From Actinokineospora pegani (GTDB lineage Bacteria > Actinomycetota > Actinomycetes > Mycobacteriales > Pseudonocardiaceae), in contig NZ_WHOL01000099.1 in NCBI RefSeq assembly GCF_009745975.1, positions 1 to 57,074 on the forward strand: a DNA stretch of 57,074 nucleotides. Reading direction: 5' to 3'. The translations under genes and the position numbers were made by a program. This document shows positions 24,123 to 31,244 of the stretch, piece by piece. A model generated the notes under the pieces. The model was not told the DNA's origin. It saw nothing but the letters and a program-made list of their open reading frames with translations, and ran no database searches. Positions within the stretch are counted from its first letter, which is position 1, and every line of letters begins with the position of its first letter.

Positions 24123-24632
24123 TCAGCCGACCCGGACGTCGACGCAGGCGTAGAAGGCGTTCGCGGTGTCGGCGATGTTCCACACCGCGAGCACCTTCTG
24201 CTCGCCGGGGAACCGGCTGAGGTCGACCGCGTGGGTCACGGTCGACCCGGGCCGCGCGCCGCCGTCGTCGACCTCGGTCACCAGGGTGTCGCCCACGTAG
24301 TACTGCCACGTGCTGGTCGCGTGCCGCGCGGTCAGGGTCCAGGTGAAGTGCGCCCGGCCGCCGACCGGCGTCGCGGGCCAGTCGCGGGACTCGTCGCCGA
24401 GCGCGGCGAAGCGGGCGTTGCCGCCGTCGCACGCGCGCAGGCCCTTGGGGCCCTCGACGCTCTGCGGCTCGTACTGGATCTCACCGCACCCGGGGACGAC
24501 CCCGGTCGCGCAGTTGGCCTGGCGGCTGGGCGGGCTGTTCACGTACCCGTGCGCGAGGGCCGGGGTGGCCGGGACGGCCAGCCAGAGCAGGGGGGTGGCG
24601 GCGACGACGGCGACGGTGCGGGGGAATCCCAT
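24123..24632 (-). CDS. lytic polysaccharide monooxygenase, AA10 (chitin/cellulose-active)
   Basis: The ATG at 24632 with GAGGAG upstream gives 169 residues. After a signal peptide ending PALA the mature protein begins HGYVNSPPSRQANC, so the N-terminal His of the copper histidine brace is exposed by cleavage. The second His is in GGRAHFTWTL and the axial Phe/Tyr region in WNIADTANAFYACVDV. It oxidatively cleaves crystalline chitin or cellulose outside the cell. It is single-domain, with no separate carbohydrate-binding module. A DasR-type palindrome lies 74 bases upstream, favouring chitin. Confidence 0.93.
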   Translation of the reverse strand: MGFPRTVAVVAATPLLWLAVPATPALAHGYVNSPPSRQANCATGVVPGCGEIQYEPQSVEGPKGLRACDGGNARFAALGDESRDWPATPVGGRAHFTWTLTARHATSTWQYYVGDTLVTEVDDGGARPGSTVTHAVDLSRFPGEQKVLAVWNIADTANAFYACVDVRVG

Positions 24633-24705
24633 GGGGCTGCTCCTCGGGGTGTGCGTCCACGCCCGGGTGGGGCGGGGCGGCCGGACCAGGGGCTGAGCGG
24701 GAGTG

Positions 24706-24717
24706 TGGTCTAGACCA
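24706..24717. promoter_or_regulatory. DasR-responsive element (dre)-like operator
   Basis: TGGTCTAGACCA is a perfect 12-bp palindrome and matches the core of the consensus I recall for the GntR regulator DasR, which controls chitin and N-acetylglucosamine genes in streptomycetes. It sits in the promoter region of the LPMO gene. DasR itself is not in this window. Confidence 0.7.
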
Positions 24718-24904
24718 TAGGTCGACAATTGACGGCACGTCAAGGAAGTGGGTGGACTGGTCACGGCGGTCGGGAATCCCGTCCCGGTGAGCGTTGTCGG
24801 ACCCGCCGGATACCCTCCGGTACGTTGGGACACCTGTTCGAGTCCGGACACGGGCCGGGACGCGGGGGAGTGCACGCAGACATGGGAGTGCGAGGGGTGC
24901 GGGT

Positions 24905-26956
24905 GTGAGCGCGGAGACGCTGTACGGGGCGGATGACCTCACCCACCTCGAGGGGCTCGAGGCGGTCCGCAAGCGCCCCGGCATGTACATCGGGTCCACC
25001 GACAGCCGGGGCATCAACCACCTGTTCGCCGAGATCATCGACAACGCGACCGACGAGGGTGTCGCCGGTCACGCGACGAAGGTGGTCGTCACCCTGCACG
25101 CCGACGGCAGCGTCGAGGTCGACGACGACGGCCGCGGCATCCCCACCGGCCAGCACGCCAAGTCCGGCCTCTCCGGGGTGGAGCTGGTGCTGACCCGGCT
25201 GCACGCGGGCGGCAAGTTCGGCGGCTCCGGCTACAAGACCTCCGGCGGGCTGCACGGCGTCGGCGCCTCCGCGGTCAACGCGCTGTCGCACCGGTTCGAC
25301 GTGACGGTCCGGCGCGAGGGCAAGGTCCACCAGATGTCCTTCGCGCACGGCGTGCCCGGCGTGTTCGACGGCCCCGGCCCCACCGCGGCGTTCACCCCGC
25401 GCTCGGGCCTCGGGGTCGTCGGCAGGATGAAGCGCGGCCAGTCCACCGGCACCTCCATCCGCTACTGGCACGACGCCCGCTACTTCGAGAACGGCGCGGT
25501 CCTCGACGTCGAGGCGGTGCGGCAGAAGGTCCGCAACACCGCCTTCCTCGTCCCCGGCGTCGCCTACGTGCTGCGCACCGCCGTCGACGGCGCGATCTCC
25601 GAGGAGACCTTCCACTTCCCCGACGGGCTCACGTCCATGGTGGAGTTCCTGACCCCCGGCGGCGACCGCGCGGTGTCCGGCACGCTGATGGCGGTGGGGG
25701 AGGGCACCTACACCGAGAACGCTGCCGACGAGAACGGCGTCATGCGGTCCAAAGTGGAGCGCACGGCCGAGGTCGAGGTGGCCTTCCGCTGGGGCACCGG
25801 CTACGAGCGCACCGTCGAGTGCTTCACCAACACCATCCGCAACGTCCACGGCGGCACCCACCGCAAGGGTTTCGAGCGCGCCGCGGTGAAGACGTTGCAG
25901 GACGCCATCTCCAAGACCCGCGGGCTGCTCAAGCCCAAGGAGGACCCGCCCTCCCTCGACGACGTCCTCGAGGGCATGACCGCGGTCGTGCACGTGCGCG
26001 TCCCGGAGCCGCAGTTCACCTCCCAGACCAAGGACGAGCTGTCCACCGCGGGCATCACCAAGGTGATCGGCGCGGTCGTCGAGCGCACCATCCGCGCCTG
26101 GGTCGAGGACCGCAGGACCAAGTCCGAGGCCAAGGTCGTCCTGCAGAAGATCGTCGACGCCTCCCGCGTCCGCCTGACCCAGAAGCAGCAGAAGGACGCC
26201 GCCCGCCGCAAGACCGCCCTCGAGGGCGCGGCCATGCCCCCCAAGCTCGTCGACTGCCGCACCACCGGCGTGGCCCGCAGCGAGCTGTTCCTGGTGGAGG
26301 GCGACAGCGCGCTGGGCTCGGCGCGGATGGCGCGGGTGTCGGAGTACCAGGCGCTGCTGCCGCTGCGCGGCAAGATCCTCAACGTGCAGAAGGCGTCGCT
26401 GGCCGACACGCTGCGCAACGCCGAGATCGCCGCGATCGTGCAGGTGCTCGGCGCGGGCACGGGCCGCACCTTCGACCTGCCCGCGATGCGGTACGGGCGG
26501 GTGATCCTGATGGCCGACGCCGACGTCGACGGGTCGCACATCCGGACGCTGCTGATCACCCTGTTCGCCAAGTACATGCGGCCGGTCATCTCCGACGGCA
26601 GGCTGTTCGCCGCGATGCCGCCGCTGCACAAGATCACGACCAAGGGGCGGGGCGGGGAGACCCGGTTCACCTTCACCCAGCGGGAGATGGAGACCACCGT
26701 CGCCGCGCTGCAGAAGGCGGGCAAGCAGGTCGTCACGCCGGTGCCCCGGTTCAAGGGGCTCGGCGAGATGGACGCCGACGAGCTGTGGGAGACCACGATG
26801 AACCCGGCCACCCGCTCGGTCCGGCGGATCACGCTGGACGACGCCGAGGCCGCGGAGAACGCGCTGGAGCTGTTGATGGGCGAGAAGGTCGAGCCGAGGC
26901 GCAACTGGCTGGTGGAGTCCTCCGGCCGGGTCGACCAGGCCGCCATCGATGTGTGA
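24905..26956 (+). CDS. parE: DNA topoisomerase IV subunit B (GyrB/ParE family)
   Basis: The GTG at 24905 (MSAETLYGADDL) has GAGGGG upstream and gives 683 residues, the usual ParE size. The GHKL ATPase shows EIIDNATDEG, DDDGRGIPTG and the glycine-rich GGLHGVGASAVNALS. The TOPRIM domain shows LVEGDSALGSARMAR and MADADVDGSHIRTLL, and the C-terminus has PRFKGLGEMDADELWETT. The EGDSALGSA form differs from the EGDSAGGSA of gyrase and is typical of the actinobacterial second type II topoisomerase. It pairs with ParC, encoded 52 bases downstream. Confidence 0.92.
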   Translation: MSAETLYGADDLTHLEGLEAVRKRPGMYIGSTDSRGINHLFAEIIDNATDEGVAGHATKVVVTLHADGSVEVDDDGRGIPTGQHAKSGLSGVELVLTRLHAGGKFGGSGYKTSGGLHGVGASAVNALSHRFDVTVRREGKVHQMSFAHGVPGVFDGPGPTAAFTPRSGLGVVGRMKRGQSTGTSIRYWHDARYFENGAVLDVEAVRQKVRNTAFLVPGVAYVLRTAVDGAISEETFHFPDGLTSMVEFLTPGGDRAVSGTLMAVGEGTYTENAADENGVMRSKVERTAEVEVAFRWGTGYERTVECFTNTIRNVHGGTHRKGFERAAVKTLQDAISKTRGLLKPKEDPPSLDDVLEGMTAVVHVRVPEPQFTSQTKDELSTAGITKVIGAVVERTIRAWVEDRRTKSEAKVVLQKIVDASRVRLTQKQQKDAARRKTALEGAAMPPKLVDCRTTGVARSELFLVEGDSALGSARMARVSEYQALLPLRGKILNVQKASLADTLRNAEIAAIVQVLGAGTGRTFDLPAMRYGRVILMADADVDGSHIRTLLITLFAKYMRPVISDGRLFAAMPPLHKITTKGRGGETRFTFTQREMETTVAALQKAGKQVVTPVPRFKGLGEMDADELWETTMNPATRSVRRITLDDAEAAENALELLMGEKVEPRRNWLVESSGRVDQAAIDV

Positions 26957-27008
26957 GCAGCCAGAGCGCCCGGAGCCGATAGAGCACGCGAGAGAGAGCC
27001 GCTGACTT

Positions 27009-30000
27009 ATGGCACGCCGCAAGGCCCCGACGACCAAGGTCGACGCCGCCGCCTTCGACCAGGCTGGCGCGCAGGTCTTCGACAACCCGGTGGAGACCGA
27101 GATCGAGGACTCGTACCTGGAGTACGCGTACTCGGTGATCCACTCCCGCGCGCTGCCCGACGCCCGCGACGGGCTCAAGCCGGTGCACCGCCGCATCCTG
27201 TTCTCGATGAACGAGCAGGGCTACCGGCCCACCCACGCGTACGTGAAGTCCTCCCGCGTGGTCGGCGACTGCTTCGTGCGCGGCGCGCTGGTGTCCACCC
27301 CGGCGGGGCTGCGCCCGATCGAGGCGCTCGAGGTCGGCGACCTGGTGCTCGACGGCGGCGGCGCGCCCGTGCCGGTCGTCGAGGTGTACCAGAACCCGGC
27401 CTCGGCCCTGGTCCGCGTGACCTGGGACGACGGGCACACGCTGCTGGTCACCCCCGGCCAGCGGTTCATGACCGCGGGCGGCTGGGTGCAGGCGCGCGCC
27501 CTGGTCGGCGCGACCACCACCGCGGCGGCCGCCCGCCCCGCGGTGCGCGCCGAGGACACCGGGTTCGAGTTCGTGCTCGGCCTGCTGACCGCCCTGGGCG
27601 CGGTCGACGCCGACGGGCGCGTGGTGCTGGCCAGCCCGGAGACCGAGGCGGTCGACCGGGCGCACGGCTGGGCGATCGGCGCGGGCGTCGCGGTCTGCCG
27701 CGACAAGCTCGAGGCAGGCGCCGACGACGGCCGCGACCTGCACTCGCTGGCGTTCACCCCGCTCGACCCGGTGGCCCGCCCGATGACCGAGGCGCTCGCG
27801 GGCCGGGTGCCCGAGGACGTGCTCTCCGACCGCGCCACCTGGCCCGCCTTCCTGGCCGGCCTGGCCGTGGGCGGCCTCGACGCCGCGGGCATCGGCTGCG
27901 GCGCGACCGACCCCGAGCTGCACCGCCAGCTCCGCGCGATGACCGCGCCCACCTCCGGGCGCCGGGTCGTCGCGGTCACCCCGGTCACCCCGGACACCAC
28001 CTTCGACATCCAGGTCGGCTCGCCCGAGCACGCCTTCGTCGTCGAGGGCTGCGTCGTGCACAACTGCATGGGCAAGTACCACCCGCACGGCGACTCGGCG
28101 ATCTACGACGCCATGGTCCGCCTCGCCCAGGACTTCTCGCTCAACGCCCCGCTCATCGACGGCCACGGCAACTTCGGCTCGCCCGACGACGGCCCGGCGG
28201 CCAGCCGGTACTGCGTCGTCGGCGACACCCGCGTCCGGCTGGCCGACGGCGCCAGCCCGCGCATCGCCGACCTGGTCGCCCTCGCCCCGGACTCCGAGGC
28301 GGTCGTCGACCTCGAGGTGCTGGACAAGGACGGCAAGGCGGTCCGGGTGGACCGGGTCTTCAACTCCGGGGTGCACCCGACCCTGCGCGTGGCGACCGAG
28401 TCCGGCCTCGCCCTGCGCGGCAGCCACAACCACCTGGTGCTCTGCCTGGACAACCCGATGGGCGTGCCGCTGCTGCAGTGGCGCAGGCTCGACGAGGTCC
28501 GGCCGGGCACCGTGGTCTGCGTGGCGCGCAACGCCTGGCAGCAGGTCGTGCCCACCGCCCGCGAGCACGTGCTGGCCGCGAGCCGCGGCGCGGGCGACCA
28601 CGTCCCCGACTTCGTCTGGGCGGGCGGCTGGGGTCTCAAGCGCGCGTTCCTCATGGCCCGCTTCGACCGGGCGGGCGCGCTGCGCGGCACCGGCGCGGAC
28701 GTGGCGGTGGAGTTCGCGGGCGGCACCGAGCAGGTGGCCCGCGAGGTGCAGGAGCTGCTGGTCGAGTTCGGCGTCGGCGCGCGGCGCGCGGGCACGACGC
28801 TGGTCGTGTCCGGGTCGCGGGACCTGCGCGCGTTCACCGAGCGGGTCGGGTTCGCGGGCGCCAAGCAGACCGCGCTGGTCAACGCGGTGGCAGGCGTGCC
28901 CGCCGTGGGTGAGCGGGTGCCGTTCGTCGCCGAGTACGCGGGCGTGGACCCCGGGCTGGTCGACCGGTGGGAGACCGAGCGGTCCCGGGTCGTGGCGCGC
29001 GTCGCCGACCAGGAGGTGCTGCGCACGGTCCTGCCGGTGCTGGACTCGGGCTACCGGTTCGAGACCGTCGCCACGGTCGAGGCCGGTCCCGCCGAGGAGG
29101 TCTACTCGGTCCGCGTGCGGACCGAGGACCACTCGTTCCTGGCGGGCGGGTTCGTCAACCACAACACCGAGGCCCGCATGTCCAGCGAGGCCATGCTGCT
29201 CGTCGGCGAGCTGGGCGAGGACACCGTCGACTTCCGGCCCAACTACGACGGCTCGCTGCAGGAGCCGACCGTGCTGCCCGCGGCGTTCCCGAACCTGCTG
29301 GTCAACGGCACGTCCGGGATCGCGGTCGGGATGGCCACCAACATGATCCCGCACAACCTGGGCGAGGTCGTGGCGGCGGCGCGGTGGCTGATCACGCACC
29401 CGGCGGCCACGCTGGACAAGCTCATGGAGTTCATCCCCGGGCCCGACCTGCCCACCGGCGGGATGCTGCTGGGCCTCGACCAGGTGCGCAAGGCCTACGA
29501 GACCGGCCGCGGCGTGGTGCGGATGCGGGCCAAGGTGCAGATCGGGCCGCTGGAGGGCTCGCGCGGGCGGCAGGCGATCACGGTGACCGAGCTGCCCTAC
29601 CAGGTCGGCTCGGAGAAGATCATCGAGAAGATCACCGACGAGGTCACCAAGTCCAAGCGGCTCACCGGCATCGCCGACGTCAAGGACCTCACCGACCGGG
29701 AGAACGGCACCCGGCTGGTCATCGAGTGCAAGGTCGGGGTCAACCCGCAGGCGCTGCTGGCCGACCTGTACCGGCTCACGCCGATGGAGCAGTCCTTCGG
29801 CATCAACAACCTGGTGCTCGTCGAGGGGCAGCCGCGCACGCTGGGCCTCAAGCAGTTGCTGGAGGTCTTCCTCCAGCACCGCTACGACGTGGTCACCCGG
29901 CGCACGCAGCACCGCAAGCGCAAGCGCGAGGACCGGCTGCACCTGGTCGAGGGCCTGCTGCTGGCGCTGCTCGACATCGACAAGGTCATCGCCCTGATCC

Positions 30001-31244
30001 GGGGCAGTGACGACGCGGCGGCGGCCAGGTCCGGGCTGATCAGCCGGTTCACGCTCTCGGAGATCCAGGCCAACTACATCCTCGACACCCCGCTGCGCCG
30101 GCTCACCAAGTTCGACAAGCTCGAGCTGGAGAACGAGCAGTCGCAGCTCGCCGCCGAGATCGCCGAGCTGTCCAAGATCCTCGACGACGACGGGGTGCTG
30201 CGCAAGGTCGTCTCGACCGAGCTGGCCAAGGTAGCCAAGGACCTCACCGCCGAGCGCCGCACCGCGCTGATCGACGGCGACCTCAAGGAGGTCCTCGCCG
30301 CGTCCAGGCCCGCGGGCCCGCTGGAGGTCGCCGACGACCCGTGCCAGGTCATCCTGTCGGCCACCGGCCTGGTCGCGCGCACCGCGGCCGAGTCGGAGGA
30401 GACCTCGGAGGCCCGCCGCCGCAACGGCCGCGCCCGGCACGACGCGGTCGCCGCGGTGGTGCACTCGACCGCGCGCGGCCAGGTGCTGCTGGTGACCAGC
30501 AGGGGCCGGGCGTTCAAGACCGACGTGCTGCCGCTGCCGGTGCTGCCCGAGCAGGCGGGCACGGTGTCGCTCAGCGGCGGCATGGCCGCCAGCGAGGTGG
30601 TCCCGCTGGACAAGGGCGAGCGGGTGGTGGGCATCGCCCCGCTGGGCGAGCAGGCGGCCGGGTCGCCGGGCCTGGCGCTGGGCACCCGGGCGGGCGTGGT
30701 GAAGGTGTGCGCGCCCGACTGGCCGGTGCGCTCGGACGAGTTCGAGGTCATCACGCTCAAGGACGGCGACGAGGTCATCGGCGCCACCTGGCTCACCGAC
30801 GGCGCCGAGTCGCTGGTGTTCGTCTCGTCGGAGGCGGCGCTGCTGCGCTACCAGGCCGCCATCGTCCGACCGCAGGGCGCCAAGGGCGGCGGGATGGCGG
30901 GCATCACCCTGCCCGGGGGCGCCACGGCGGCCTTCTTCGCCGCCGTGCGCACCGACGACGCCGACCACGGTGAGCCGATGGTGGTCACCTGCACCGGGCA
31001 GACGGTCAAGGTCACCCCGTTCGCCGACTACCCCGCCAAGGGGCGCGCCACCGGCGGCGTCCGCGCGCACCGCTTCCTCAAGGGTGAGGAGGGCCTGGTG
31101 CTGGCCTGGGTCGGACCGCGGCCGGTGGGCTCGTCGCGCACCGGGTCCGCCGTGGAGCTGCCCGACCCCGACCCGCGCCGCGACGGCTCGGGCACGGCGC
31201 ACCCCGGCCCGGACGTCATCGGGCACACCATCGAACGGGGCTGA
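27009..31244 (+). CDS. parC: DNA topoisomerase IV subunit A (GyrA/ParC family) with two inteins
   Basis: The precursor has 1411 residues. Removing intein 1 (88-352) and intein 2 (402-719) leaves 828, a normal GyrA/ParC length. Exteins read continuously across both joints: [15 protein letters not shown] and AASRY|TEARMS, the latter with the catalytic tyrosine (Tyr401 of the precursor) at the junction. The quinolone-resistance region [10 protein letters not shown] has the susceptible Ser and Asp. The long C-terminal part (from about 1100) is the beta-pinwheel DNA-wrapping domain, and I see no canonical GyrA box. It forms an A2B2 enzyme with ParE for strand passage and decatenation. Function depends on two protein-splicing events. 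Confidence 0.95.
27270..28064 (+). other. intein 1 of ParC (265 aa)
   Basis: It begins with Cys88 in block A ([20 protein letters not shown]) and ends with the His-Asn of block G (GCVVHN), followed by Cys+1. Block F is [16 protein letters not shown]. Block B, normally TxxH, reads T148-P-G-Q151, so the catalytic-assist His is replaced by Gln. Between the splicing halves, [15 protein letters not shown] (about 189-203) and [14 protein letters not shown] (about 281-294) look like two decayed LAGLIDADG motifs without their acidic residues in the right place, so the homing endonuclease is probably dead. The insertion site is just before the KYHPHGD loop of the DNA-gate domain. Confidence 0.9.
28212..29165 (+). 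other. intein 2 of ParC (318 aa), GyrA-type site
   Basis: It starts with Cys402 ([20 protein letters not shown]) and ends GGFVNHN, followed by Thr+1. Block B is S472-H-N-H475 and block F is [13 protein letters not shown]. It sits immediately after the catalytic tyrosine, the same place and with the same Thr+1 as the well-known mycobacterial GyrA inteins, and the N-terminal 110 residues resemble that intein closely. The middle keeps one LAGLIDADG-like stretch ([11 protein letters not shown], 546-556) and an endonuclease-like C-terminal segment ([32 protein letters not shown]). The first motif is absent, so endonuclease activity is doubtful. Confidence 0.92.

Follow-up and report, generated by a model that had tools for sequence, protein, structure and literature searches.

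What are two inteins doing in the gene for a single topoisomerase subunit, one on either side of its active-site segment? This question is raised by the parC-like gene of Actinokineospora pegani, a member of the Pseudonocardiaceae, which lies in a stretch of 57,074 nucleotides (positions 1 to 57,074 of contig NZ_WHOL01000099.1, assembly GCF_009745975.1), referred to here as the window. Sequence comparison suggests that both are, in all likelihood, selfish splicing elements of the ParC precursor that have lost homing here and are kept by descent under selection to splice. After translation, we infer, each intein would excise itself from the precursor, and both excisions together would yield a predicted enzyme of 828 residues in which the DNA-gate segment and the catalytic tyrosine are rejoined. 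That both splicing events would be needed for an active enzyme follows soundly from this anatomy.

The joints of the two inteins (Table 1) are well supported. The first-pass annotation had placed two inteins around the active-site segment, and we reproduce its coordinates; an intein-free ParC from the same genus (genome G009) is 88% identical to the window exteins over 826 residues and aligns without a gap at both joints, the sole gap being a single residue distant from either. The further claim that the inteins bracket the quinolone-resistance region holds for the active-site segment up to the tyrosine, which is enclosed, but not for the start of the region, which falls outside the insertion site of intein 1 (site 1; that of intein 2, 147 bases away, is site 2). 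The region begins, in E. coli GyrA numbering, about six residues before site 1, which leaves its first part outside the pair of inteins. Intein 2 scores above the cut-off with both NCBIfam models, intein_Nterm and intein_Cterm, and matches the Mxe GyrA intein (1am2, E 1.2e-28), while intein 1 is above the cut-off of Pfam Hint_2, as expected of a Hint fold. The exteins match DNA_topoisoIV. The GyrA box is absent from the window ParC and present in the second paralogue of the same genome; among 16 Actinokineospora genomes it occurs in 0/16 ParC and 16/16 GyrA proteins. Because the box is lacking, unlike in the second paralogue, the protein is better called ParC, the A subunit of topoisomerase IV, and the subunit-A domains and the parE neighbour point the same way. 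Where a site-2 intein sits in a ParC-type protein, the source name is often DNA gyrase subunit A, perhaps owing to an intein-bearing GyrA model.

Table 1. Features of the parC locus, in window coordinates.
Feature	Position	Strand	Description	Basis
parE-like gene	24794..26956	+	gyrase/topoisomerase IV subunit B family; directly 5' of parC	family match
parC-like precursor gene	27009..31244	+	1411 aa; type IIA topoisomerase A subunit	ORF list, family matches
N-extein	27009..27269	+	residues 1-87; C-terminus ...RVVGD, with an acidic residue at -1	joints, alignment
Intein 1	27270..28064	+	265 aa, residues 88-352; D^C...HN^C; Cys1...His-Asn; Hint fold; degenerate endonuclease remnant	
Gln64 codon of intein 1	27459..27461	+	block-B position 10, normally His in inteins	
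Middle extein	28065..28211	+	49 aa, residues 353-401; +1 Cys to catalytic Tyr; ends ...AASRY	
Catalytic Tyr codon	28209-28211	+	last codon of middle extein	
Intein 2	28212..29165	+	318 aa, residues 402-719; Y^C...HN^T; Cys1...His-Asn^Thr; degenerate endonuclease	
His74 codon of intein 2	28431-28433	+	canonical block-B His	
C-extein	29166..31244	+	residues 720-1411, with stop codon	

Both inteins seem to have lost the means to move. Relative to full-length relatives, intein 1 has both LAGLIDADG acids replaced and is missing about 170 residues, and intein 2 has its first LAGLIDADG motif deleted and the acid of the second lost. With the catalytic acids taken as generally known, neither window intein retains the acids of both motifs that an active LAGLIDADG endonuclease would be expected to have. 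The ratio of nonsynonymous to synonymous substitution rates (dN/dS) stands at 0.32 and 0.44 in intein 1 and at 0.47 in intein 2, compared with 0.23 and 0.24 in the C-extein. These values and the lost endonuclease acids together indicate that mobility is probably gone and splicing kept.

Intein 1 carries a Gln (Gln64, in TPGQ) at block-B position 10 (B:10), where a profile comparison aligns the constant His74 of the site-2 inteins and a profile search the block-B His of gp41-1. Is this a peculiarity of one intein? All 129 aligned site-1 inteins (123 distinct; 118 from protein searches and 11 from the genus) have Gln at B:10. The initial protein search listed 120 of 141 matches, and five rows were excluded from the site-1 counts, four of them cut at the N-terminus (P0060, P0082, P0102, and P0117) and one split oddly by the aligner (P0073). 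Since this set came from a Gln-bearing query, we sampled a second time with a DNA pattern limited to the terminal His-Asn and the first part of the C-extein. The pattern found at least 80 stretches, with a complete intein readable in 69 and not in 11; 69/69 combine Gln at B:10 with Thr at B:7, 44 of them lie outside the 129, and TPSQ is still visible in one of the 11 incomplete stretches. Nine phylum labels occur among the 69 (Actinomycetota, Pseudomonadota, Acidobacteriota, Armatimonadota, Rhodothermota, Thermodesulfobacteriota, Desantisbacteria, Staskawiczbacteria, and a micrarchaeon), with an additional Parcubacteria record, although single labels may be wrong, since outside the Actinomycetota the records come mostly from metagenome bins. 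Carriage by phages was also considered and set aside, as the pattern gave 0 matches in viral_contigs for exact HN^C junctions. Two GyrA-type proteins with a site-1 intein, P0110 and P0113, have a third insertion site within their middle segment, at QGNFG^Ser, and the inteins there read TPNH and TPDH at block B. Since these have His, as do 142/142 site-2 rows, the Gln belongs with site 1.

In other respects, the site-1 inteins resemble class 1. Cys1 is present in 129/129 and 69/69, and D246, H254, H264, and N265 are constant, giving the block F Asp and His and the block G His-Asn; block B, in contrast, reads TxxQ in place of TxxH throughout both sets, so intein 1 is filed only as a class 1-like variant. 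The marks of class 3, a position 1 without nucleophile and a block F Cys, are not seen, with Cys1 and a block F Asp in their place. The extein residue at -1 is Asp in 61 and Glu in 8 of the 69, and Asp in 118/118 of the protein-search set. Intein 1 belongs, in all likelihood, to an old allele family at one GyrA/ParC site, spread over numerous bacterial phyla and a small number of archaeal bins. No intein residue is described as more conserved than the B:10 His, for which two exceptions were counted as of 2014 (available part of PMC4031507), and the accessible text of PMC6333167 states that a bulky -1 residue can replace it in a mutant and that the natural His-less subset is very small. No report of Gln at block B or of site-1 inteins was found in the accessible portions of the open-access literature, and one may be in print. 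The group may have been little noticed because intein 1 escapes the standard N-terminal intein model even on the organism's own genome: three inteins pass the cut-off there, those of gyrA and of a radical SAM-like protein together with intein 2, and two weaker places fall below it.

How would such an intein take its first step? Possibly, the site-1 inteins follow a distinct first splicing step in which the constant Gln, the nearly always acidic -1 residue, and perhaps the His-rich KYHPHGD C-extein replace the His, and we put this forward tentatively. In our reading the Gln, either alone or together with the -1 residue or the KYHPHGD His residues, would serve the first acyl shift. A different solution has been reported for Tko CDC21-1, with Lys58 located 23 residues past B:10 in the wording of a review; the site-1 inteins instead have the constant Gln at B:10 itself, no conserved Lys about 22–23 residues past it (Tyr/Phe and Gly predominate at positions 86 and 87), and no Lys among their near-invariant columns. 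Alternatively, the Gln could be a founder accident without catalytic meaning, with splicing relying on strain, Thr B:7, and block F alone, as the B:10 His is important yet non-essential in some inteins (PMC6333167, in the part available). Gln64 is, however, one of 17 fully invariant columns across the 69 inteins, although the 16 non-actinobacterial members share only 25–36% identity with the reference, a divergence over which drift should have altered it. We therefore consider a founder accident unlikely.

Intein 2 is of a more familiar kind. It shares with the Mxe GyrA intein the DNA-gate Tyr^Thr site, Cys1, the block-B His, and the HN^T end, but differs in its host, which is ParC-type and without the GyrA box expected of a gyrA product. 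The gyrA gene of the same genome (G000:C74, L002 1273-4764, + strand) has an intein of 309 residues at this Tyr^Thr position, whereas its site 1 is empty. A recent transfer of site-2 inteins from one of the two genes to the other finds no support, as 33 ParC inteins and 12 genus gyrA inteins form separate groups in a tree that also holds four distant rows; 31 of the 124 site-2 proteins were hand-picked for it, and long branches, the window's intein 2 among them, are flagged.

The presence or absence of each intein in related genomes, which the first-pass annotation had proposed to survey, proved mixed. In the 16 genus ParC genes each site is sometimes filled and sometimes empty: site 1 is filled in 11/16, site 2 in 6/16, both in 3/16 (the window genome, G013, and G015), and neither in 2/16 (G008 and G009). 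With one intein or neither in 13/16, the pair is not obligatory. In gyrA of the same genomes, site 2 is filled in 12/16 and site 1 in 0/16. Intein 1 ranges from 129 to 435 residues within the genus, the spread expected of a homing cycle. The +1 residue at site 1 is Cys in 11/11 occupied alleles, and in the empty ones it is Val (G002, G009), Thr (G007), or Cys (G008, G011); the Cys kept in G008 and G011 is likely a footprint of intein loss. G008 is the clearest case: it falls in a supported group of six rows (FastTree) of which the other five are occupied, and appears to have lost intein 1. ACTGC stands at both ends of intein 1 in 11/11 occupied alleles, and a deletion between these repeats would leave GAC-TGC-ATG, as found in G008 and G011. 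A Cys-bearing empty site 1 occurs in 14 of 390 family genomes; where the genus has intein 1, it is seen in 12 of 105 unoccupied genomes, versus 2/218 elsewhere (ancestry not corrected). Alternatively, alleles that carried Cys beforehand may have been the ones invaded.

Across the 390 family genomes, site 1 is filled in 67, a site-2 junction match is present in 45, and both occur in 14, compared with 67 x 45 / 390 = 7.7 expected (Fisher P 0.019); within genera, the 14 fall below an expectation of 18.3 (permutation P 0.02), and both statistics ignore shared ancestry. Site 1 was counted at E below 1e-28, with 30/30 inspected loci confirmed; for the site-2 pattern, 29/30 inspected loci are ParC and 1/30 (G041) is gyrA, and TECRM alleles are unmatchable. 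The evidence on strict exclusion between the sites is mixed: the pooled count lies over and the within-genus count under expectation, and the site-2 pattern is imperfect. Double occupancy recurs in 17/230 mapped proteins (a biased set) and in 8/79 pattern-found loci with a readable Tyr site, and extends to other Pseudonocardiaceae genera and to a protein of a Pyrinomonadaceae bacterium that is named as subunit A of gyrase. Two selfish elements aimed at one conserved segment are the best reading of such a pair.

Could one or both inteins instead act as a stress-responsive switch of decatenation? A precedent exists in Mycobacterium smegmatis DnaB, where, according to the available part of PMC6195587, two inteins differ in rate and oxidants inhibit DnaBi1. 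DnaBi1 and DnaBi2 are likewise two dissimilar inteins at functional sites of one replication protein, and both window inteins begin with Cys and sit at the active-site segment. DnaBi1, however, is a class 3 intein without a nucleophile at position 1, in another host and at other sites. The variable presence within the genus, the two genomes without either intein, and the apparent loss from G008 argue against such a switch, as does the frequent loss and gain of Haloferax MCM inteins in the accessible part of PMC10643990. The Haloferax inteins MCM-a and MCM-d resemble the pair described here in their neighbouring sites, their gain and loss, and a +1 residue that is perhaps co-converted (same source, in part), but both of their endonucleases work, whereas both window endonucleases look degenerate. 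The suggestion in the first-pass annotation that decatenation is a point of post-translational control accordingly gains no support, given varying occupancy, intein-free alleles, and apparent loss of intein 1 in at least one relative. That annotation noted neither the block-B Gln nor the gyrA intein nor the missing endonuclease acids. A control role is possible, nothing found in this analysis points to one, and we hold regulated splicing to be improbable.

Some observations weigh against the picture of two inteins that have lost homing, still splice, and in the case of intein 1 use a Gln-based first step. Towards the end of intein 1, over its last 40 codons, dN/dS reaches 0.73 and 0.90, so constraint may be relaxed there. 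Some actinobacteria may be able to do without topoisomerase IV, and essentiality is then no guarantee of splicing here. The genome's gyrA intein scores above the LAGLIDADG_3 cut-off (30.3 bits), although its second endonuclease acid is replaced. P0073, outside the counts, pairs TPGQ with Asn at -1, and the acidic -1 residue is thus not absolute. The first two of these points could mean that the window's intein 1 no longer splices and that topoisomerase IV is not made. Yet the frame is open, Cys1, Thr B:7, the block F Asp and His, and the His-Asn end are intact, overall dN/dS is below 1, and the adjoining parE is open, which makes a dead intein 1 very improbable. Least probable of all is an active mobile pair that co-homes, for although double occupancy recurs, the window endonuclease motifs are without their acids, double occupancy within genera is below expectation, and co-homing is inefficient in Haloferax (PMC10643990, in the part available).

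The parE-like gene ends 52 bases before the parC frame; because its family match covers nothing before residue 41, translation may in fact begin further downstream. An antisense open frame of 1465 codons (26829-31226, - strand) spans nearly all of parC and probably just reflects the very high GC content at third positions. The window also holds an open reading frame at 24123-24875 (- strand) that by eye presumably resembles a secreted chitin- or cellulose-oxidising protein (lytic polysaccharide monooxygenase, LPMO). A further intein of the genome (G000:C40:45971-46195; L218 1252-3192, + strand) sits in a Cys cluster of what by eye looks like a radical SAM enzyme.

In conclusion, a large allele family with a fixed Gln at B:10 would offer many natural and probably active examples with which to probe the role of the block-B His. 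If the proposed first step is true, an intein-extein co-adapted mechanism would have been kept across bacteria and archaea and overlooked through poor model scores. Site 1 in Actinokineospora displays stages of the homing cycle, from a 435-residue intein through degenerate forms and a 129-residue mini-intein to an empty site with a Cys footprint, and the single, double, and empty alleles at such closely spaced sites mean that interference between neighbouring inteins could be tested.
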